Of a stretch of DNA of 46,336 nt, positions 18,734 to 29,322 are shown in pieces (within the stretch, counting starts at the first letter, position 1; each line of letters starts with the position of its first letter). A program made the translations under genes and the position numbers. Where the stretch lies: positions 1 through 46,336 of the forward strand of contig JAITOL010000147.1 of assembly GCA_031289955.1 (NCBI GenBank), read 5' to 3'. The notes beneath the pieces are model-generated. The model worked only from the letters and a program-made list of their open reading frames with translations. It did not search any database and was not told the origin of the DNA. Source of the stretch: Synergistaceae bacterium. Lineage in GTDB: Bacteria; Synergistota; Synergistia; Synergistales; Synergistaceae.

Positions 18734-18761
18734 TTGACTAATATATTTTCTGGAGTAAAAT
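18734..18761 (+). promoter_or_regulatory. Promoter of the ammonium channel gene
   Basis: TTGACT (18734-18739) and TAAAAT (18756-18761) are separated by 16 bases. The implied start near 18768 lies downstream of an in-frame ATG at 18760, so that ATG cannot be the initiator if this promoter is used. Confidence 0.65.
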
Positions 18762-18804
18762 GTCCAACATTGAACGAAGGTTCAGGACGAGGAGGGAAAT
18801 GCGG

Positions 18805-20529
18805 ATGTTTTCATCGGTTGACACGATTTGGGTACTATTGGGAGCAATACTCGTTTTCTTTATGCAGGCCGGCTTCGCTATGGTGGAGACCGGTTTTACC
18901 CGAGCAAAGAACGCCGGCAACATCATCATGAAGAACCTGATGGATTTTTGCATCGGTTCGGTGGCTTTCTGGGTGCTTGGATTCGGCATCATGTTCGGCG
19001 CCGATATAAGCGGCATCATAGGCAAAGTGGATTTCCTGGTTCGGGGCAATTATGACTCCACGTTTCCTACATACGCTTTTCTCATTTTCCAGACGGTTTT
19101 TTGCGCGACGGCAGCCACGATCGTCTCCGGCGCGATGGCGGAGCGCACAAAGTTTATATCCTACTGCTTGTACAGCTTGATAATCAGTTTGCTCGTCTAC
19201 CCGATATCGGGCCACTGGATATGGGGCGGCGGCTGGCTTGCGCAGAGGGGGTTCCACGACTTCGCTGGTTCGACGGCGGTCCATATGGTGGGCGGATTGG
19301 CGGCCATGGTTGGAGCGTCCATACTGGGGCCCCGCATCGGGAAATATGACGCAAACGGGCGCGTGCAGGCCATACCGGGCCACAGCCTGACGCTCGGCGC
19401 TCTCGGGGTCTTCATACTCTGGTTCGCGTGGTTCGGCTTCAACGGCGGCTCCACGGTCTCCGCAACAGGAGACGAAATCTTGGTTTCTATGAGCGCCATA
19501 ATATTTAACACGAATTTAGCAGCCGCCACAGCCACAACCGTGACGATGATCATCACGTGGCTCAGATACGGTAAACCGGACATATCGATGACGCTGAACG
19601 GAGCGCTCGGCGGACTTGTGGCGATAACTGCCGGATGCGACGCTGTGAGCCCGGCCGGCGCGTTCTTTATCGGTCTTATCAGCGCGTTCATCCTCGTCTA
19701 CGGCATCGAGTTCATCGATCAGAAGCTCAGGATAGACGACCCGGTCGGCGCGATAGGCGTACACGGCCTCTGCGGGGCCGCCGGAACGATAATGACCGGT
19801 CTCTTTGCCCTGAATGGCGGCCTCTTCTATGGCGGAGGATCCGCTATGGTCACGACACAGATGATAGGGGTGGCGGCAGTCGCGGTTTGGACCTGCGTTA
19901 CGATGGGCATAGTGTTCTACGCCCTCAAGGCTACGATCGGACTGCGAGTGACCAGGGACGAGGAGCTCGAGGGCCTCGATATTCGCGAGCACGCCCTCAT
20001 AAGCAGCTACGCGGACTTCATGCCCCTTTCCGCGTCGCCCGTAAGTTTCACGTCCCCTCCGCGGAGCGCGCACTCGGAAGACACTACGCCGCTCGCCGCG
20101 GCCAAGAACATGCTTGGGGAACATCCCAAGATGAGCAAAGTCGAGATTTACACGAACCCCAAGAAGGTGGACGCGTTGAAAGAAGCGCTGAACGGCGTAG
20201 GAATAACCGGCCTCACTGTGACGGTCGTGACCGGCTGCGGCGCGCAGAGGAGCAAGAGGGAGTTCTATCGCGGGGCGGAGCTGAAGATGACGCTTCTGCC
20301 GCAGGTGCGGGTAGAGACGGTGGTCTGCAAGGTTCCTGTGCGGTATGTGATAGACGCGGCAAAATCGGTGCTGCACACCGGTTCGACGGGAGACGGCAAG
20401 ATATTCGTGTACGACGTGGAGAACGTCATACGGGTAAGCACGGGGGAAGAGGGTTTCGACGCGCTTCAGTACGATTACGACAAGGCTGTGGGCGACGGAT
20501 CAGAGCCGCCAATGAAATCAGCTACTTAA
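18805..20529 (+). CDS. amt: Ammonium channel (Amt) with C-terminally fused P-II domain
   Basis: About 574 residues. Residues 1-410 are an Amt channel with 11 membrane segments and the conserved pore residues: DFAGSTAVHMVGG (periplasmic Asp and first pore His) and GVHGLCGAAGT (second pore His). From about residue 443 to the end is a complete P-II (GlnB/GlnK) fold aligning without gaps to E. coli GlnB through GDGKIFV and TGEE. Normally separate GlnK plugs AmtB; here sensor and channel are one chain. The E. coli T-loop Tyr51 is Leu (residue 493), Lys58 is Gln (500) and Arg103 is Ser (545), while Gln39, Gly-Asp-Gly and Lys90 remain. The ATG at 18805 has AGGAGG nine bases upstream; the upstream ATG at 18760 overlaps the promoter. 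A terminator follows. Confidence 0.93.
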   Translation: MFSSVDTIWVLLGAILVFFMQAGFAMVETGFTRAKNAGNIIMKNLMDFCIGSVAFWVLGFGIMFGADISGIIGKVDFLVRGNYDSTFPTYAFLIFQTVFCATAATIVSGAMAERTKFISYCLYSLIISLLVYPISGHWIWGGGWLAQRGFHDFAGSTAVHMVGGLAAMVGASILGPRIGKYDANGRVQAIPGHSLTLGALGVFILWFAWFGFNGGSTVSATGDEILVSMSAIIFNTNLAAATATTVTMIITWLRYGKPDISMTLNGALGGLVAITAGCDAVSPAGAFFIGLISAFILVYGIEFIDQKLRIDDPVGAIGVHGLCGAAGTIMTGLFALNGGLFYGGGSAMVTTQMIGVAAVAVWTCVTMGIVFYALKATIGLRVTRDEELEGLDIREHALISSYADFMPLSASPVSFTSPPRSAHSEDTTPLAAAKNMLGEHPKMSKVEIYTNPKKVDALKEALNGVGITGLTVTVVTGCGAQRSKREFYRGAELKMTLLPQVRVETVVCKVPVRYVIDAAKSVLHTGSTGDGKIFVYDVENVIRVSTGEEGFDALQYDYDKAVGDGSEPPMKSAT

Positions 20530-20697: not shown

Positions 20698-21351
20698 ATG
20701 AGTAATCATTGGCAAAGGCAGATACCTCAAAAACTGTTTGATAAGTATGAGATGTATAATTTTAATCACGCGGTCGAAATCCTTTCGAGCGCATATACTG
20801 AGGAATATTCTGAGATTATTTCGGCACTGGATGTATTTTCCTTGTCTACTGCGGATATAATCGCTGGTGGTGGGAATGAATCAGCTATTCCTAAAAAACT
20901 TTCGGCTTATTTGCATCCACTTGATTGGCAGGAAGTAAAAATTACAGGCGATTTGCTCGTTAAACTCCATCACAGAAATTCGTCGAATATCACAGAATTT
21001 ACAATCCAAGATTTTATAGATGGGCATAACATTGATTACGTGAAAAATCGTGTGGCGATAGATATGGAATGGAATAGCAAAGACCAGACATTTGATCGTG
21101 ACCTGTATGCGTTCCGTACTTTTTACGAGTGTAATATTATATCTTGTGGGGCTATAATAACGCGGAGCGAACAACTGAATCCTATATTTACAAAACTTGG
21201 GATCAGACAAAAATACGGCGCGAGTACGACTTGGATGGGTAAGTTGCTTCCTCGTATCAGTTCTGGTCGCCATGGTGGATGTCCCTTGCTGGTTATAGGC
21301 ATCACTCCGGCGGCTATAACAGATTTGGAGGTGGACGATGTCAGAGCATGA
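20698..21351 (+). CDS. Type II restriction endonuclease, BglII/BstYI-like
   Basis: A 217-residue cytosolic protein resembling the BglII/BstYI endonuclease family. The core shows an active-site arrangement of the PD-(D/E)xK type as used by BglII: an acidic residue in GHNIDYVKN, then VAIDMEWNSKDQTFDRDL near residues 119-137. Beyond it, WMGKLLPRI and GGCPLLVIGIT near 180-205 match the conserved tail of these enzymes. It probably cuts a palindromic GATC-centred site, but specificity cannot be read here. The ATG at 20698 follows AAAGG by nine bases. Base and codon use are clearly AT-richer than in the flanks, pointing to transfer. It overlaps the methylase start by 14 bases. Confidence 0.75.
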   Translation: MSNHWQRQIPQKLFDKYEMYNFNHAVEILSSAYTEEYSEIISALDVFSLSTADIIAGGGNESAIPKKLSAYLHPLDWQEVKITGDLLVKLHHRNSSNITEFTIQDFIDGHNIDYVKNRVAIDMEWNSKDQTFDRDLYAFRTFYECNIISCGAIITRSEQLNPIFTKLGIRQKYGASTTWMGKLLPRISSGRHGGCPLLVIGITPAAITDLEVDDVRA

Positions 21352-22000
21352 TAAAAATTATCATTATGAACACGATTTAGTCTCGTTCTGCAATGGTCGA
21401 AAGTTTAAGACGATACTGGCTGATCCCCCGTGGCAATTTCAAAACAGAACTGGAAAGATGGCGCCAGAACATAAGCGTTTGAACAGATATTCAACCATGG
21501 AACTTTGTGAAATAGAGAAGATACCTGTATCGGTAATCGCGGATGATCCTTGTCATTTGTACCTTTGGGTTCCTAACGCCTTACTGCCTGAAGGGTTGGG
21601 AGTAATGAAATCATGGGGATTCCAATACAAGACCAATATAGTTTGGGAAAAAATTCGCAAAGATGGCGAACCGGACGGACGCGGCGTTGGTTTTTATTTT
21701 CGCAATGTAACGGAGCTTATTTTATTTGGAATCAGGGGCAACAATGCGCGAACATTGACGCCCGGTCGCACTCAGGTAAATTTGTTTCGTTCTCAAAAAA
21801 GGGAACATTCTCGCAAACCGGATGAATTGATTAATATTATTGAACAATGCAGCAATGGCCCATTCTTGGAGCTATTTGCTCGTGGTACGCGTGAAAATTG
21901 GACTTTATGGGGCAATGAAGCCAATCAGGATTATGCTCCGGATTGGTCGACATATAAAAATGCCAGTAAGTCCCCTGTTACACGCGTGATGATTGGATAG
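21338..22000 (+). CDS. MT-A70-family adenine-N6 DNA methyltransferase
   Basis: A 220-residue methylase. The catalytic motif DPPW is in ILADPPWQF near residue 30. Family motifs follow in MT-A70 order: YSTMELCEI, CHLYLWVPNALLPEGL, GFQYKTNIVWEKI, GFYFRNVTELILFGIRG and SRKPDELINIIE, then FLELFARGTRENWTLWG, the S-adenosylmethionine pocket. The same family includes the MunI methylase and METTL3-like RNA enzymes; beside a restriction gene, DNA protection is the natural reading. It should methylate adenine in the site cut by the upstream nuclease. Its ATG lies inside the nuclease gene, so expression is coupled, nuclease first. AT-rich like its partner. Confidence 0.88.
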   Translation: MSEHDKNYHYEHDLVSFCNGRKFKTILADPPWQFQNRTGKMAPEHKRLNRYSTMELCEIEKIPVSVIADDPCHLYLWVPNALLPEGLGVMKSWGFQYKTNIVWEKIRKDGEPDGRGVGFYFRNVTELILFGIRGNNARTLTPGRTQVNLFRSQKREHSRKPDELINIIEQCSNGPFLELFARGTRENWTLWGNEANQDYAPDWSTYKNASKSPVTRVMIG

Positions 22001-22038: not shown

Positions 22039-22797
22039 TTACTTCAAAAAATAGCTGACGTCGAGGCTGCTCGATAAGAAGTACGCGCCGGTCGCCGTCA
22101 TTGCGGCGCACACGGCGGCGATATGGCGTTTCGGGACGTTTGAGATAAGCTGGCATGTCGTTCCCAGGACGAGTATGTGAATGATTTCAGCGACGCAAAA
22201 ATACGCCGCGACATCCAACACTATCGCCCGGGCTGGCGCCGTTCCCTGCGCGAAAATATGCGCGGGGGGAACGAATATCAGCGATAAAAACGACGCGTAG
22301 GAAAAAGAGAGCAGCGACGAAGCTCGTCCCGTCCCGCGAGCGGGAGCAAACGACAGGACGGATGAGACGAAAAACAGCGTCAACGCGCATATGACCCGCC
22401 AATTCACGATACCCTCCAGGCTCGTGATGGATCCCGGGCCCTCGATGCCCGGAATATCTCCGGGAACGCCCACCGTGAGCATAAAAAGATACAGCGCCGC
22501 CATAATGGCGGCCGTGTTCAGAATGGCGGTCAGCCGGCGCTCCGCGCGTCCGGAGCCGTCGCCGGGCTTCAGAAGCGACAACGACGCGGCGGCGGAGGGG
22601 AACCACAGCCACGACCCCACTCCTAAATAAGCTGACAGGGGCGCCCCGCTCCACGGCAGCGCGAACGCAGAAATGAGCGCGCACATCCACGCGGCGAAGC
22701 TCAGAGCGTCCCATCTTTTTCGCTCCACCGCCAGTGGAGACCTCTGAAACGGGCCGGCGGCCGCCGTAACTATCGCTATATACAGGACAAACGCCAC
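22039..22797 (-). CDS. Unidentified polytopic membrane protein
   Basis: About 252 residues with seven or eight hydrophobic segments and short polar loops; I do not recognise a family. The first segment, AFVLYIAIVTAAAG, begins at once after the start. Near residue 35 comes WDALSFAAWMCALISAFALPW, and the middle has LKPGDGSGRAERRL on a cytosolic loop. The reading frame extends upstream into the threonine deaminase gene, but that part is arginine-rich antisense-like sequence. GTG at 22797 or TTG at 22806 is a plausible start, neither with a clear binding site. Because it overlaps the stop of the deaminase gene, it is likely translated by coupling. It converges on the methylase gene. Confidence 0.6.
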   Translation of the reverse strand: MAFVLYIAIVTAAAGPFQRSPLAVERKRWDALSFAAWMCALISAFALPWSGAPLSAYLGVGSWLWFPSAAASLSLLKPGDGSGRAERRLTAILNTAAIMAALYLFMLTVGVPGDIPGIEGPGSITSLEGIVNWRVICALTLFFVSSVLSFAPARGTGRASSLLSFSYASFLSLIFVPPAHIFAQGTAPARAIVLDVAAYFCVAEIIHILVLGTTCQLISNVPKRHIAAVCAAMTATGAYFLSSSLDVSYFLK

Positions 22798-23771
22798 TAA
22801 AGACAATTTTTGTTTATATAGTCCGCCAATTGGGGCAAAGCTACGTTGCCGCCACTGATGAGCGACACGACTCGCCTGCCTTTGAAGCGACCTGGCAGAG
22901 CGCCGCACAGGAGCGCGGCGAACGCGACGGCGCCGGTCGGCTCGGCCAGCAGCTTGCACCGCTCGAGTATGAGGAGCTGAGCGCGGATTACTTCCGCGTC
23001 GGTCACAGTCAGCATATCGTCGACATATTTTTGAACGACCGGAAACGTCAGTTCGCCCGGTATCGTGGTCCTTATGCCGTCCGCGACCGTGAGAGGATGG
23101 TCGAGCGCCGTTCTTCCTCCGGCGCGGAATGAAATCCCGGTGCTGTTGCTGCCCTCCGGCTCCACTCCAAACACCGAAATGCCGGGATTTGTTTCCTTTA
23201 CCGCTGTCGCTATTCCGGAGATGAGGCCGCAGCCCCCTGTCGGCGCCAGAACAGCCGCAACGTCCTCCATGTCCTCGATTATCTCGAGCCCTGCGGTTCC
23301 CTGGCCCGCCATAACGAACGGATCGTCGTACGGAGGAACGAACGTCATCCCTCTCTCGCCTTGCATCTGCTTCGCCAGCGCAATGCGTTCGTCTGATTTA
23401 GTCCCGCGGTAGATCAGCTCCGCGCCGTAGTCCTTTATCGAGGCGGCTTTCACCGGAGAACCTCCCTCCGGCATAACGACCGTCGCTTTATATCCGCATA
23501 GTTTCGCGGCGTAAGCGACGGCTTGTCCGTGATTGCCGGATGAGGCTGTCACTATCCCCCGTTCACCTTCTTCGCGCGATAGCGAAAAAATCCTGTTGCA
23601 CGCCCCTCTTATCTTGAAAGACCCCGTCTTTTGAAGGTTTTCAGCCTTGAAAAAGACGTCGAACCCGGTAATAGCGCTGAGCGCCCTGGAACTGACGACA
23701 GGCGTTCTGTGAATATGGCCGGATATCCTGTCTCTGGCGTCCAGCACGTCTTTTATCGATATAACTTCCAT
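22797..23771 (-). CDS. tdcB: Threonine deaminase, catabolic type (PLP-dependent)
   Basis: About 324 residues, with the catalytic domain only and no C-terminal ACT regulatory domain, as in the catabolic TdcB type. It converts threonine to 2-oxobutyrate and ammonia. The PLP-binding lysine is in TGSFKIRGACNRI near residue 50, the substrate loop SSGNHGQAVA near 75, and the phosphate-binding loop PTGGCGLISG near 180. The ATG at 23771 follows GGAGG by eight bases; an ATG nine codons upstream has no such site. It is followed by an overlapping membrane protein and preceded by the terminator of the TAXI gene, so it has its own promoter or depends on read-through. Serine/threonine racemase or diaminopropionate-type relatives are less likely. 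Confidence 0.88.
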   Translation of the reverse strand: MEVISIKDVLDARDRISGHIHRTPVVSSRALSAITGFDVFFKAENLQKTGSFKIRGACNRIFSLSREEGERGIVTASSGNHGQAVAYAAKLCGYKATVVMPEGGSPVKAASIKDYGAELIYRGTKSDERIALAKQMQGERGMTFVPPYDDPFVMAGQGTAGLEIIEDMEDVAAVLAPTGGCGLISGIATAVKETNPGISVFGVEPEGSNSTGISFRAGGRTALDHPLTVADGIRTTIPGELTFPVVQKYVDDMLTVTDAEVIRAQLLILERCKLLAEPTGAVAFAALLCGALPGRFKGRRVVSLISGGNVALPQLADYINKNCL

Positions 23772-23800
23772 TAGATCCCCCTCCGCGTTGAATGTCATAA

Positions 23801-23867: not shown

Positions 23868-24821
23868 CTAGTCTACCGTTATTCCGGCTTCCTTATAGAA
23901 CTTCGCGGCGCCGGGATGCAGAGGCGCGGTGAGGCCGTTCGTTGCGGTTTCGAGCTTGATGTTGCGGGCCATCGCGTGCGAAGCCTGGACATCGGCGATG
24001 TTGTCGAACAGAGCCTTCGTGAAGTTGTAGATGACCTCCTCGGGAACACTTTCGCTCGTGATGAGAAGCGCCATGACGGAAGGAGTCGTAGTGTCGGTGT
24101 CGATCCCGCGGTATGTGCCGGCCGGGATCACATTGGCGACGAAGAACGGATTCGCCGCGATGACCTTATCGAGCGTATCCTTATCGAACGACAAAAGAGC
24201 TACATCCTTTGTGGTCGTGAGATCCATGAGCGCCGACGTGGGAACTCCGCCGACGACGAAACCGGCGTCGATCTGATTGTCCTTGAAGCGGCTGCTGACG
24301 CCTCCAAAGTCGAGGAACTCGACGGACATTTCGTCATATTTGACCCCAGCCGTCTCCAGTATCGAACGCACGTCGCCCTCGGTGCCGGATCCGGGCGCGC
24401 CCACTCCGACTTTTTTGCCCTTGAGGTCGGCGAGCGATTTTATACCGGATTCCTTGGAGACGACGAGCTGCAACGTCTCGGGATACAGAGCCGCTATCGT
24501 GCGGATTCCCTTTAGCGGCCTGCCCTCGAACATCAGCTCGCCGTTGTACGCCCACGCGGTGACGTCGGCCTGCGAGAAAGCTACTTCAATTTCGCCCTCG
24601 GCGACGAGGTTCGTGTTGGCGACGGCCGCGTTGCCGGTCTCAGCTGTGGCGTTGAGGTCGGGGTTCTTGCTGACGGCGGCCGCGATTGCCCCGCCGATCG
24701 GGTAATACGTTCCGGACGTTCCGCCCGTGGCTATCGAGACGGAAACGGGCGCCGCGAACGCGGCGGTGGCTATCAGGGACGCGCAGATCAGAATTGCGGC
24801 GATTATGGATTTTTTGGTCAT
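23868..24821 (-). CDS. TAXI-family TRAP transporter solute receptor
   Basis: A 317-residue exported binding protein. The signal peptide is MTKKSIIAAILICASLIATA, cut after the AFA near residue 23. The mature protein has the TAXI signature VSIATGGTSGTYYPIGGAIA near residues 27-46 and the FSQADVTAWAY strand near 100, then a KKVGVGAPGSGTEGDVRSIL domain crossing. Such receptors capture a small organic acid or amino acid and hand it to a fused TRAP permease. The permease gene is just upstream, so the pair is complete. The ATG at 24821 has AGGAG eight to nine bases ahead. The ligand is unknown; glutamate and other 2-amino or 2-oxo acids have been suggested for some relatives. Confidence 0.92.
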   Translation of the reverse strand: MTKKSIIAAILICASLIATAAFAAPVSVSIATGGTSGTYYPIGGAIAAAVSKNPDLNATAETGNAAVANTNLVAEGEIEVAFSQADVTAWAYNGELMFEGRPLKGIRTIAALYPETLQLVVSKESGIKSLADLKGKKVGVGAPGSGTEGDVRSILETAGVKYDEMSVEFLDFGGVSSRFKDNQIDAGFVVGGVPTSALMDLTTTKDVALLSFDKDTLDKVIAANPFFVANVIPAGTYRGIDTDTTTPSVMALLITSESVPEEVIYNFTKALFDNIADVQASHAMARNIKLETATNGLTAPLHPGAAKFYKEAGITVD

Positions 24822-24955
24822 AATAGATACTCCTCCTTATTTTAAATACCTCTTTTTTGTCAAGATCAATATTGCTTCCGTAGTTACCCTGAGTTCAACC
24901 GGCAGACAACACCTCCTTCCGGTTTTAAAACGATAATCCCCGGTGCGGACGAGTC

Positions 24956-27103
24956 CTAAGCGGGGTTTCCAGTTTCTCCTCGGTTATGTCTTTCCGCCAG
25001 TATCGCCTGAATCACATGGATGCCGATGAGAATGACAAGCCCTATGATGTCGGTCGTGGTGCCGGGATGGAGAAGGCCGATCGTTCCAATCAGAGCCACC
25101 AGTCTCAAGGGCCATATGAGTTTCGTCTTGTAGAAACCTATCGTGCACATGGCAAGCAGGAACACCCCGATGAGCGCCGTCACTACAGCCTGTATCATCG
25201 GAAGCGGAGTGGCGTCGACGAAGAGCAGTATCGGGCTGAAAACGTATATGTACGGCACCAGAAAACCCGCAAGAGCGAGTTTAAAGGCGGTAAATCCCGT
25301 CTTCATCGGATCATCTCCGGCTATGCCCGCGCCAGCGTATGCGGCAAGCGCGACCGGCGGCGTCAAGTCCGCCGCTATGCCGAAGTAGAAGACGAACATA
25401 TACGCGGCTATTGGCGGAACATTGAGCTCTTTAAGCGCGGGGGCCGCCATGGTGCTGGTCACTATGAAATTTGCCGTCGTGGGAAGGCCGGTGCCGAGCA
25501 AAATTGAGGCGCACATAGTAAAGAACAGGGTAAATATCAGCATGATCTGATCAATAGGCAAGGATTCGCCGGTGACATATTTGAACGCTCCGCCGGTGGC
25601 GGACACAAAGGACTTGGCGAGTTCGGAGGAGAGAGTTATTATACCTCCCGTGATATTGAGCGCGAGGCCGGTCAGGGTTCCTGTGCCAACCACTATCCCC
25701 ACGCAAGCGCACGCGCAGGCTACCGCGAGAGCGCCCCTCGCTCCCGCGTCGAAAGCTTCTATTATCCTCTTCGGGGTGAGAAGCGATTCGCGAGCCACGT
25801 TTTCCATGTGAAGTTTATCCACCATCGGTTTATCCAGAAACGCGGCACGCGTGAGCGCCCATCGGAAAATGTAGTTTGCCCACGACAGGGCCAGGCTGAC
25901 CAGAATACCGCCGAAAGCCGACATAAGCGGAGTATATCCCGCCACCAACAGATAAATTATAGCTATGAGAGGAATAAGGAGAAAGCCTTTTTCCTTCAAA
26001 AGTTTGCCCAATCGAGGCAGCTTGTCTCTCGTCAGTCCCTTGAGCCCAAGCCTGTTGGCCTCGAAATGAACCTGTACGATGACCGCAAAGTAGTACAGCA
26101 GCGCTGGAACCACTGCCGCCAGAGCGACTTCCAGATAACCAACGCCCAATATCTGAGCCATTATGAAAGCCCCGGCCCCCATCACAGGCGGCATTATCTG
26201 CCCTCCGGTCGAGGCTACGGCCTCGACTGCCCCCGCAAAATACGGCCTGTATCCAACGCTCTTCATGAGCGGTATCGTGAACATGCCCGTCGTGCAAACA
26301 TTGGCGACCGACGAGCCGGATATGGTGCCCATGAGGCCGGAGGCGACGACCGCGACCTTGGCCGGGCCTCCCGTCGACCAACCGGCCAGCGCGAGCGACA
26401 GGTCAATGATGAACCTTCCCAGGCCTGTCTTCTCGAGAACGGAGCCGAACAGGATGAACATGAATACGAACGTTGACGATACTTCGAGCGGCGTGCCGAA
26501 TATGCCCTCGGTGCCGAGGTACATGTGATTGAGTATGCGCTTGATGTTGAATCCCCTGTGATGGAACAGCTCCATGCTGATGCTGCCCCCGAAATAACAA
26601 TAGAGGAGCGCCGCGATAGCAAGGCAAGGCAGAACCGGGTTCGATATTCGCCTCGTAGCCTCGAGCAGAAATACAATGAGCATAAAGCCCATGGCGAGAT
26701 CCATCGTCGTCGGAAGCCCCGACCTCGTCATGGCGATGGTGTCGAGCTGCGTCACGAGATAATACAGGGGAACTGTCGAGAGCACGGCCAGAATTATGTC
26801 ATATATCGGTATGTTGGCGTTCTTCGGCATGGTTGACTTGATCGGATAGAGCAAAAAGACGAGAAAAAGCGCAAACGCCAGATGCACCGCTCCCTGTTTC
26901 TGGGCGGCAAGCAATCCAAAACCGGCTGTGTAGAAGTGAAAACATGACATGGCGACCGCGACCGCTATCAGAAATTTGAGCTGCCAGCCGGGAGGCGTCC
27001 GGAAACGCGCCTCGGTGTCGTACCTCCTCATCAGTTCTTCGAAATCTATTCCGGATTCCCGCCCAGGCTCTATCTCCGCTTCCCTTACCTTGTTTTCGTC
27101 CAA
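24956..27103 (-). CDS. TRAP transporter fused permease (4TM + 12TM)
   Basis: A 715-residue membrane protein, the normal length for the fused TRAP permeases that work with TAXI receptors. The N-terminal 160 residues give the small DctQ-like subunit; the large DctM-like domain follows with its loops GLMGTISGSSVANVCTTG near residue 260 and TGLPTTANFIVTS near 560, the repeated substrate and sodium-site loops. A third conserved patch is IAADLTPPVALAAYAGAGIA near 600. It imports an acid ligand with Na+. It starts seven bases after the HPr-EI gene and is followed, after a 134-base gap, by its receptor gene. That gap contains a small AACCGG/CCGGTT inverted repeat which might set differential expression. 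Confidence 0.93.
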   Translation of the reverse strand: MDENKVREAEIEPGRESGIDFEELMRRYDTEARFRTPPGWQLKFLIAVAVAMSCFHFYTAGFGLLAAQKQGAVHLAFALFLVFLLYPIKSTMPKNANIPIYDIILAVLSTVPLYYLVTQLDTIAMTRSGLPTTMDLAMGFMLIVFLLEATRRISNPVLPCLAIAALLYCYFGGSISMELFHHRGFNIKRILNHMYLGTEGIFGTPLEVSSTFVFMFILFGSVLEKTGLGRFIIDLSLALAGWSTGGPAKVAVVASGLMGTISGSSVANVCTTGMFTIPLMKSVGYRPYFAGAVEAVASTGGQIMPPVMGAGAFIMAQILGVGYLEVALAAVVPALLYYFAVIVQVHFEANRLGLKGLTRDKLPRLGKLLKEKGFLLIPLIAIIYLLVAGYTPLMSAFGGILVSLALSWANYIFRWALTRAAFLDKPMVDKLHMENVARESLLTPKRIIEAFDAGARGALAVACACACVGIVVGTGTLTGLALNITGGIITLSSELAKSFVSATGGAFKYVTGESLPIDQIMLIFTLFFTMCASILLGTGLPTTANFIVTSTMAAPALKELNVPPIAAYMFVFYFGIAADLTPPVALAAYAGAGIAGDDPMKTGFTAFKLALAGFLVPYIYVFSPILLFVDATPLPMIQAVVTALIGVFLLAMCTIGFYKTKLIWPLRLVALIGTIGLLHPGTTTDIIGLVILIGIHVIQAILAERHNRGETGNPA

Positions 27104-27110
27104 ATTAATC

Positions 27111-29219
27111 TCACTGCCTTTCCTTATCGAGCTGCTTAACGCCGGTATTTTTCCCCAGGTAATCGCGCGCTTCGGAAGCGCTGCCCAAACTCAGAACGTG
27201 GGCGGCTATGCGCTCGCACTCCGCTTTTGACAGCTCGCGCACGCGGGCTTTGACCTGAGGAATCGCCGGTACGCTCACGCTCAGCTCGTCGACGCCTATG
27301 CCGATGAGAACCGGGATGGCCGCCGGATCGCCCGCTATTCCGCCGCATACCCCGACCCAGCAGTTCTTTCCTCGCGCTCCGTCCACTGCGCTCTTTATCA
27401 TCGCGAGCACTGCCGGATTCAAACCGTCGGCAATGCGCGACAACTTTGGGTTTCCTCTGTCGGCCGCCATAGTATACTGGGTAAGATCGTTTGTGCCAAG
27501 CGACAAAAAATCCGCCTCTTCGGCAAAATGACGGGCCAGTATAGCCGCCGATGGAACTTCTATCATCAGGCCGATCTTCACGTCACTGACGCCCATATCC
27601 CCGGCTACGCGGCGGACGATCGAAGACGCCTCGCGGAACTCCTCCATCGTGCTCACCATCGGGAACATGATATGAAGCCCGCAATATTCCGAGGCCCTCA
27701 ATATAGCGCGGAGCTGGGTCTCGAACATATCCCTGTGCTCCAGCGACAGGCGAAGGCCGCGCACGCCCAAAAAAGGGTTTTCCTCGGCGTCCTGCGTTAT
27801 ATAGGGGATCGGCTTGTCTCCCCCTATATCCATGGTGCGAACGACGAGGGGCTTGTCGCGTCCTATGGTTTTAGCTATCTTTATATATATGTCGGCCAGC
27901 TCATCCTCGCTCGGGGCGGTCGCCCTGCCAAGAAACAGAAATTCCGAGCGCAGCAGGCCAACGCCGTCGCACCCGAGCGACGCCGCCTGTGACGCGTCGG
28001 ATGTCCCTCCTATGTTGGCGGCGACCTCCAAGGTGACGCCATCCTTCGTGACGGCCGGTTCCATGGTATGTTCCAGATCGCGCGCCCTGCGCGCGGATTT
28101 TTCCTCCTGATTCCCGCGAACCCGCTCGACCTCCGCCGGATCAGGATTTATGCGCAGTGTTCCCTCGTCGGCGTTCAATATCACGGCCATGCCGTCTTTT
28201 ATCCCGAGCGCGGCATGGTCTATGCCCACGAGAGCCGGAAGATCGAGCGAGCGGGCAAGTATCGCTATATGGCTCGTCGGGCCGCCCTTCACCGTGCAGA
28301 ACCCGAGCACGCGTTTGTCGAGCGTCGCCGTGTCGGACGGGGTCAGATCTTCGGCCACCAGTACGCAGTTTTGCGTGTATGCAATCTCTTCCTGCGTGCC
28401 GGTCAGTATCATGAGCACCCTTCTGCCCACATCGTTCAGATCGGCCGCGCGCGCGGCGAAAAGTTCGTTGGATAGACCGGAAAAACGCTCGGCCTGAGCC
28501 TTGTAGGCGCTCTTCCACGCAAAAGCGGCGCTCTTGCCGGTGGCGATCATCCCCAAAGCCGCTCCGGTGAGTTCCGGATCGTCGAGCATCTCTATGTGCG
28601 CGCCGAATATCGCGGCGTGCCCCGCGTCGATAGCGGTCTCCGTCTGTTTCTCTATCGAAGCGAGTTCGGACTTCGCCTCGTCGACCGCGCGCCTGAAATC
28701 CGCCGCCTCCTCCTCGGGAGAAGCCGCAGGCCGCTCGCTCACCGCTATGTCGCCGCGAGTTATGTGCTTGACAATTCCGGTCGCTATGCCTGGCGAGGCT
28801 GTTATCCCCCGAAACAACGATCTGTCCGCCTCGTTCCGCGTTCGGGTCTCTTTTTTTGCGGCGGGAACCTTGGCGGATTCCGCCGGTTTAGCCGTTTGCG
28901 CAACTGAGGGCGCTCCGTTTTCCATGTCGCCGGCGATGATTGGGATGAGGGCTTTGATTGCCTCTGCCGCGTCGGCTCCGGATGCTTCCAGCGCGACCGA
29001 ATCTCCCTGCTCCAGGGCAAAACCCATAACGGCGACGAGACTTTTCGCGTTCACCCTTCTGTCGCCCTTGACGAGCTTTATATCCGACGTAAATTTTTTC
29101 GCGGTTTTGACCAATATGGCAGCGGGACGCGCGTGAAATCCGTTTGGAGAGATTATGGTTATCTCTCCCGAAAACTCCCATCCCTGAGCGCTTTCTCCGG
29201 TATTTGAGCCATCGGACAT
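27111..29219 (-). CDS. HPr-Enzyme I fusion protein of the phosphotransferase system
   Basis: A 702-residue cytosolic protein. Residues 17-105 are an HPr domain, with the phospho-accepting histidine His29 in GFHARPA and the regulatory serine equivalent Ser60 in NAKSLVAVMGF. A linker of Ala, Pro and Lys follows (about 105-135). The rest is a full Enzyme I: FRGITASPGIATG, the active histidine in GGPTSHIAILARS near residue 325, the PEP-binding RTMDIGGDKP near 465, and the catalytic cysteine in WVGVCGGIAGD near 635. It moves phosphate from PEP to its own HPr domain. No EIIA, EIIB or EIIC gene is near; instead it heads a TAXI-TRAP operon. Its targets (a distant EII, DhaM-like kinase or a regulatory partner) cannot be seen. 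Confidence 0.92.
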   Translation of the reverse strand: MSDGSNTGESAQGWEFSGEITIISPNGFHARPAAILVKTAKKFTSDIKLVKGDRRVNAKSLVAVMGFALEQGDSVALEASGADAAEAIKALIPIIAGDMENGAPSVAQTAKPAESAKVPAAKKETRTRNEADRSLFRGITASPGIATGIVKHITRGDIAVSERPAASPEEEAADFRRAVDEAKSELASIEKQTETAIDAGHAAIFGAHIEMLDDPELTGAALGMIATGKSAAFAWKSAYKAQAERFSGLSNELFAARAADLNDVGRRVLMILTGTQEEIAYTQNCVLVAEDLTPSDTATLDKRVLGFCTVKGGPTSHIAILARSLDLPALVGIDHAALGIKDGMAVILNADEGTLRINPDPAEVERVRGNQEEKSARRARDLEHTMEPAVTKDGVTLEVAANIGGTSDASQAASLGCDGVGLLRSEFLFLGRATAPSEDELADIYIKIAKTIGRDKPLVVRTMDIGGDKPIPYITQDAEENPFLGVRGLRLSLEHRDMFETQLRAILRASEYCGLHIMFPMVSTMEEFREASSIVRRVAGDMGVSDVKIGLMIEVPSAAILARHFAEEADFLSLGTNDLTQYTMAADRGNPKLSRIADGLNPAVLAMIKSAVDGARGKNCWVGVCGGIAGDPAAIPVLIGIGVDELSVSVPAIPQVKARVRELSKAECERIAAHVLSLGSASEARDYLGKNTGVKQLDKERQ

Positions 29220-29307
29220 TTTCGCGTAACCACCTCTCGAAGAGGATTATGTTTGATGATTATTTAAAAAGCATAACACAGAGATTGGAGAAATTAAAGG
29301 GTTATAA

Positions 29308-29322
29308 ACCTCAAAATGAGGT
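29308..29322. promoter_or_regulatory. Palindrome upstream of the HPr-EI gene
   Basis: ACCTCAAAATGAGGT, a perfect 6-bp inverted repeat with a 3-base centre, lies about 90 bases upstream of the HPr-EI start and about 110 before the exported-protein start on the other strand. TTGACC on the minus strand overlaps it. It could be an operator; I see no clear -10 pair. Confidence 0.3.

Follow-up and report, generated by a model that had tools for sequence, protein, structure and literature searches.

Gene arrangement at the HPr-Enzyme I locus

The window, that is, the whole stretch of DNA analysed (46,336 nucleotides of contig JAITOL010000147.1, Synergistaceae assembly GCA_031289955.1, here genome G000), contains a gene run on the reverse strand in which a fusion of the PTS proteins HPr and Enzyme I (EI) is followed by the two genes of a TRAP transporter. 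The features of this region are as follows.

27111–29219, reverse strand: HPr-Enzyme I fusion, 702 aa, with HPr at about residues 18–94 and EI at about 135–690
24956–27103, reverse strand: TAXI-type TRAP fused permease (TIGR02123), 715 aa, TTG start at 27103
23868–24821, reverse strand: TAXI solute receptor (TIGR02122), 317 aa
23804–23839 (about), reverse strand: intrinsic terminator 3' of the TAXI gene, with a T run after the stem
22797–23798, reverse strand: PLP-dependent PALP enzyme, threonine/serine or hydroxyaspartate dehydratase-like, beyond the terminator
29308–29322, no strand assigned: inverted repeat ACCTCA-AAA-TGAGGT, named in the preliminary description

The HPr-EI protein contains the Pfam domains PTS-HPr, PEP-utilisers_N, PEP-utilizers and PEP-utilizers_C above cut-off (PF00381, 90.7 bits; PF02896, 343.3; PF05524, 88.1; PF00391, 77.5) and scores 541.8 against a cut-off of 341.7 for NCBIfam TIGR01417; its nearest solved EI structures are 2wqd, 2hro and 2hwg. 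The HPr motif GFH29ARPA, the EI motif GGPTSH317 (GGPTSHIAI) and Cys625 within VCGGIAG are intact, and we take these residues to be the phosphorylatable histidines of HPr and EI and the cysteine of the EI PEP domain. A fusion with both active histidines and the EI cysteine, as put forward in the preliminary description, is thus borne out by the domains and by the motifs GFHARPA, GGPTSHIAI and VCGG. The HPr domain also possesses a Ser60-type AKS motif. HPr-EI is a member of the general phosphotransfer proteins of the PTS, and PEP-dependent phosphotransfer is predicted for it from sequence. A small inverted repeat lies at its Shine-Dalgarno region (29233–29245) and occurs also in genome G010 and, with an altered loop, in G005; as a hairpin it is no more stable than shuffled sequences.

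The permease (689 bits, cut-off 320.65) and the receptor (349 bits, cut-off 84.35) both exceed the thresholds of their profiles, and the pair belongs to the TAXI-TRAP transporters, which combine a TAXI receptor with a single fused permease. The nearest solved structure to the receptor is 1us4/1us5. Compared with the TAXI-TRAP transporter VcGluP, as far as described in the consulted part of PMC11574862, the receptor keeps the equivalents of the amino-group contacts Y45, Q93 and E125, whereas the ligand contacts S40, S75, H123, D157 and Y200 are changed to G, A, Y, T and V, respectively. Since most of the other VcGluP contacts differ, the ligand of the receptor need not be glutamate. The same source reports that a reconstituted TAXI-TRAP transporter of Proteus mirabilis is H+-driven, and the premise of the preliminary description that TRAP transport is sodium-driven fails for that system (PMC11574862).

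The coordinates and profile scores agree with the earlier reading of the locus as HPr-EI, seven bases, fused permease, receptor and terminator. The gap between HPr-EI and the permease (27104–27110) is 7 nt long and contains no terminator or promoter-like site, so that the promoter and terminator which would have spoken for separate units do not lie between the two genes. The terminator 3' of the TAXI gene is strong (−24.5 kcal/mol, z −7.0, a stability reached by none of 200 shuffles). The PALP gene beyond it likely starts at 23771, as judged by eye, and the matches of its product fall below equivalog cut-offs. The inverted repeat at 29308–29322, on the other hand, had been called a perfect palindrome and a candidate control site, but its two 6-bp arms are separated by AAA; 21 repeats of this geometry (6-bp arms, 3-base centre) occur in the window, this one among them, and the stretch in which it lies has no counterpart in the orthologous upstream regions of G010, G007, G005 and G022. 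The repeat was therefore rejected as a conserved operator and is probably incidental.

Elsewhere in the window, an ammonium transporter gene with a fused C-terminal P-II regulatory domain was observed at 18760–20529, and an MT-A70 methyltransferase gene overlaps a BglII-family restriction endonuclease gene at 20701–22000, the latter two being a probable type II restriction-modification pair.

Distribution of the gene order

Among all 52 family genomes, the window's genome included, the intact HPr-EI fusion was found in five (G000, G005, G007, G010 and G022), and the order HPr-EI, TRAP permease, TAXI receptor, PALP in three (G000, G010 and G007), where HPr-EI and the permease gene lie on the same strand with gaps of 7 to about 26 nt. 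In G005, a divergent TAXI gene (58%) comes directly after HPr-EI, a permease gene is lacking there, and the contig stops 283 bases beyond the TAXI gene (L035:1-3625). G001 carries a fusion fragment at a contig end, with PALP directly after the end of EI and no TRAP gene between, and in G022 recQ follows HPr-EI and the TRAP ortholog lies on a different contig. In G001 and G005, whose assemblies are 97% and 84% complete, the best match to the TRAP permease is 42% identical. G039 encodes a glucose-type EIIA-HPr-EI fusion followed by an EIIC-EIIB permease gene. HPr-EI beside EII genes, the pattern that the preliminary description had named as contrary to its view, does therefore occur, but in a more distant relative of HPr-EI (47% identity). 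The HPr-EI/TRAP gene order is real yet lineage-local, and the conservation across relatives that had been suggested as a check is confined to these three genomes.

TRAP orthologs were searched in a 52-genome set of ten families, and in 36 of the 51 genomes other than G000 the best permease segments are 63–85% identical, which makes the permease a gene found across the order. The neighbourhoods of 20 loci in 19 relatives were read, the sequence available reaching less than 1 kb upstream at three of them and 15 bases downstream at one, and neither HPr nor EI occurred in the sequence read at any of the 20. A TAXI gene follows the permease at 15 of these 20 loci and PALP lies downstream at three; PALP adjoins TRAP genes in G010, G007, G004, G008 and G028. 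Several loci lie close to other acid-metabolism genes, for example that of the beta subunit of a sodium-pumping decarboxylase in G017. A block of genes for a sigma factor, a zinc-finger anti-sigma factor and an unknown protein was also observed 5' of HPr-EI in G022 (L036:7364-9689). Similar genes precede the TRAP permease gene in G028 and G008 (L088 and L089), and in the window the block is absent between a serine-acetyltransferase-like gene and HPr-EI.

A shared transcript of HPr-EI and TAXI-TRAP, by which acid uptake and PEP-driven dihydroxyacetone use would be co-expressed with no direct contact between the proteins, is a tentative reading, compatible with the function of HPr-EI favoured below. 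It would account for the gaps of 7 to about 26 nt in three species and for the single terminator after the TAXI gene, and a promoter-like stretch upstream of HPr-EI is conserved, by eye, in G000, G010, G005 and G022. However, the arrangement was not seen in G001, G005 and G022 and is thus not strongly maintained, and genes that resemble the sigma/anti-sigma block of G022 take the place of HPr-EI ahead of the TRAP gene of G008 and G028.

PTS components and dihydroxyacetone kinase genes

The fused HPr-EI contains the only HPr domain found in G000. No EIIA of the fructose/nitrogen type (PF00359) or the glucose type (PF00358) and no EIIB of PF02302 were found in this assembly, which is 95.6% complete in 219 contigs, so that an EIIA could be missed. 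The only PF02378 EIIC match is an EIIC-EAL fusion, and a sugar PTS set of EIIA, EIIB and EIIC was not found among the EII families searched, namely PF00359, PF00358, PF02302, PF02378 and the mannose-type EIIA. The HPr kinase profiles PF07475 and TIGR00679 had no match in G000; both were weak as controls, with matches in only three of 14 genomes and none in Bacillus subtilis, whose genome carries an HPr kinase gene. The EIIC domain of the EIIC-EAL fusion belongs to the lactose/cellobiose family (contig C18, L061:441-2657; TIGR00410, 295 bits, cut-off 236), and no EIIB or EIIA matching it was found in G000. Long open-frame EIIC matches recur across the genus (G001, G003, G008 and G010), and the fusion is possibly a sugar-sensing c-di-GMP phosphodiesterase.

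The preliminary description had advised looking elsewhere in the genome for EIIA or DhaM genes, and the single mannose-type EIIA of G000 is indeed a DhaM, encoded in a dhaK-dhaL-dhaM run on another contig (C139, locus L062). The three genes are consecutive and their products exceed NCBIfam equivalog cut-offs (DhaK, TIGR02363, 480.5 against 406.25; DhaL, TIGR02365, 236.7 against 138.3; DhaM, TIGR02364, 109.3 against 98.25); the contig stops about 0.7 kb past dhaM, so that the full operon may extend beyond view. DhaM is a protein of 135 aa that contains His9 and lacks both an HPr and an EI domain, and it therefore needs a donor in trans. With DhaK, DhaL, DhaM and an available HPr-EI, G000 has the components of a PEP-dependent dihydroxyacetone kinase, in which the phosphoryl transfer is predicted from sequence.

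In seven relatives from several families (G012, G015, G031, G055, G056, G064 and G068), an HPr gene closes a cluster of the order dhaK-dhaL-dhaM-glpK-glpA-like-glpB-like-HPr. In G012 and G015 the EI gene is found at a distance of about 3 kb from dhaK, and in G031, where the cluster was scanned further, a glycerol-3-phosphate antiterminator gene lies upstream and a DUF1667 gene precedes HPr. In G022, G001 and G005, the clusters of which are readable past glpB, HPr is absent from this position, and the fusion has apparently taken the place, in this lineage, of the separate HPr gene found within the dha/glp operon of relatives. Glycerol kinase was also considered as an HPr target and set aside: the one GlpK read, that of G022 (L066, by eye), does not show the Firmicutes-type HPr site.

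Across 52 genomes, 25 of which have HPr, at least one of three EIIA classes is present in 25/25 genomes with HPr and 2/27 without (p 7e-13), and DhaM in 21/25 and 2/27 (p 2e-8), these being Fisher p-values that ignore the relatedness of the genomes. The two exceptions with an EIIA and no HPr are G026, which is 65% complete, and G059, where EI is present and HPr had no match. Where HPr occurs and DhaM does not (G008, G052, G053 and G061), a fructose-type EIIA is present. DhaM occurs in all five genomes with an intact fusion, and in four of them it is the sole EIIA of the three classes searched. In contrast, a TRAP ortholog (defined by a best segment of 62% identity or more) is present in 15 of the 25 genomes with HPr and in 22 of the 27 without (p 0.13 by the same test, in the opposite direction). 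The presence of HPr tracks EIIA proteins, not the TRAP ortholog.

These distributions bear on the proposal of the preliminary description that PEP-phosphate status regulates uptake through the TRAP carrier, for instance by HPr binding or phosphorylating cytoplasmic parts of the permease. Genes on the same strand at short distance in G000, G010 and G007 would ensure co-expression of the carrier with HPr-EI. Nevertheless, the carrier is common in genomes that have no HPr, none of the 20 loci read in relatives lies near HPr or EI, the gene order is kept in 3 of 52 genomes, and HPr-EI persists in G001, G005 and G022 without an adjoining TRAP permease gene. Moreover, in the consulted portions of the literature on TRAP transporters, HPr and Enzyme I, such control was not found as a subject. 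We consider direct control very unlikely.

Origin and proposed role of the fusion

In the EI tree, which has several rows on long branches, the five fusion EIs and the EIIA-HPr-EI protein of G039 form a clade with support of 100/100, and the fusion may descend from a sugar-type EIIA-HPr-EI protein after loss of EIIA. Holding the fused EIs together with the dha-linked EIs gave p-AU 0.24 when G052 and G039 were placed as in the tree. A test leaving these two out gave p 7e-12 and was badly posed, because the tree places both inside the two groups. With p 0.24, descent of the fused EI from dha-linked EIs is not firmly backed. The sister position of a protein encoded beside EIICB would suit a remnant of a former sugar PTS that has no present acceptor, but the active-site motifs are kept in the five intact fusions (four match the strict pattern, and that of G005 has Ser in place of Ala at the second residue past the EI histidine) and every one of these genomes has DhaM, so that a remnant is improbable. 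Of very low probability is that the HPr domain acts as a sensor of PEP supply and, when free of DhaM, contacts the co-expressed TAXI-TRAP and gates acid uptake, which, if true, would give a PTS-controlled TRAP carrier through which a few Synergistaceae couple amino-acid import to the use of glycerol.

The reading we favour, with a probability of about 0.8, is that HPr-EI is the phosphoryl-transfer arm of a minimal, non-sugar PTS that serves DhaM in trans, and that TAXI-TRAP is an independent importer. The EI domain would take phosphate from PEP and pass it to its own HPr domain, which would phosphorylate the single-domain, mannose-type EIIA DhaM encoded on contig C139; transfer from DhaM to DhaL/DhaK could then lead to phosphorylation of dihydroxyacetone. 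TAXI-TRAP would act as a secondary importer, probably of an amino or organic acid; its genes follow HPr-EI in this genus and are possibly co-transcribed with it. The single HPr and single mannose-type EIIA of G000, together with the dha-HPr clusters of relatives, support the other possibility raised in the preliminary description, that HPr-EI feeds a distant partner, most likely DhaM. Some observations count against the favoured reading: HPr-EI is not adjacent to dhaM in G000, the short gaps in three genomes fit real co-transcription with the TRAP genes, and the fused EIs group with the sugar-type protein of G039.

An HPr-EI fusion without EIIA is known from Mesorhizobium loti (Comas et al. 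2008, PMC2405797). According to the consulted part of that paper, it likewise begins with HPr, ends with EI and has no EIIA domain, and its EI groups among proteins linked to dihydroxyacetone kinases; it belongs to the multiphosphoryl transfer protein group. Its gene lies in a glucitol PTS operon, whereas the Synergistaceae gene lies ahead of TAXI-TRAP and no sugar permease was found in G000 among the families searched. The same part of the paper describes, for M. loti and Bradyrhizobium japonicum, EI and HPr genes that lie within operons for dihydroxyacetone kinase, and it also ties to these kinases some multiphosphoryl transfer proteins that contain mannose-type EIIA domains (PMC2405797). 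The link of phosphoryl-transfer proteins with dihydroxyacetone kinase is thus common to both; here, in contrast, one protein carries HPr and EI, DhaM stands apart as a single-domain protein, and the HPr-EI and dha genes are found on different contigs. The dha operons of Synergistales (L106-L112) share members of the DhaK, DhaL and DhaM families and a PTS donor for dihydroxyacetone, but contain HPr as a separate gene, which the fusion lineages lack where readable (G022, G001 and G005). The incomplete PTS of Brucella melitensis similarly lacks a sugar permease and has a mannose-type EIIA among its proteins, and its EINtr, NPr and EIIANtr are read as regulatory in the part of PMC2937029 consulted; unlike that system, G000 has no detected PF00359 EIIA, and its DhaM is part of a complete kinase operon.

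The presence of dha genes in Synergistetes has been published (PMC4777399, consulted in part), and no description of a role for the HPr-EI fusion in Synergistaceae was found in the literature searched. With the favoured reading, an apparently orphan PTS arm would gain a concrete acceptor, DhaM, and the striking HPr-EI/TRAP order would be a local neighbourhood, which is poor evidence for a new TRAP control system.
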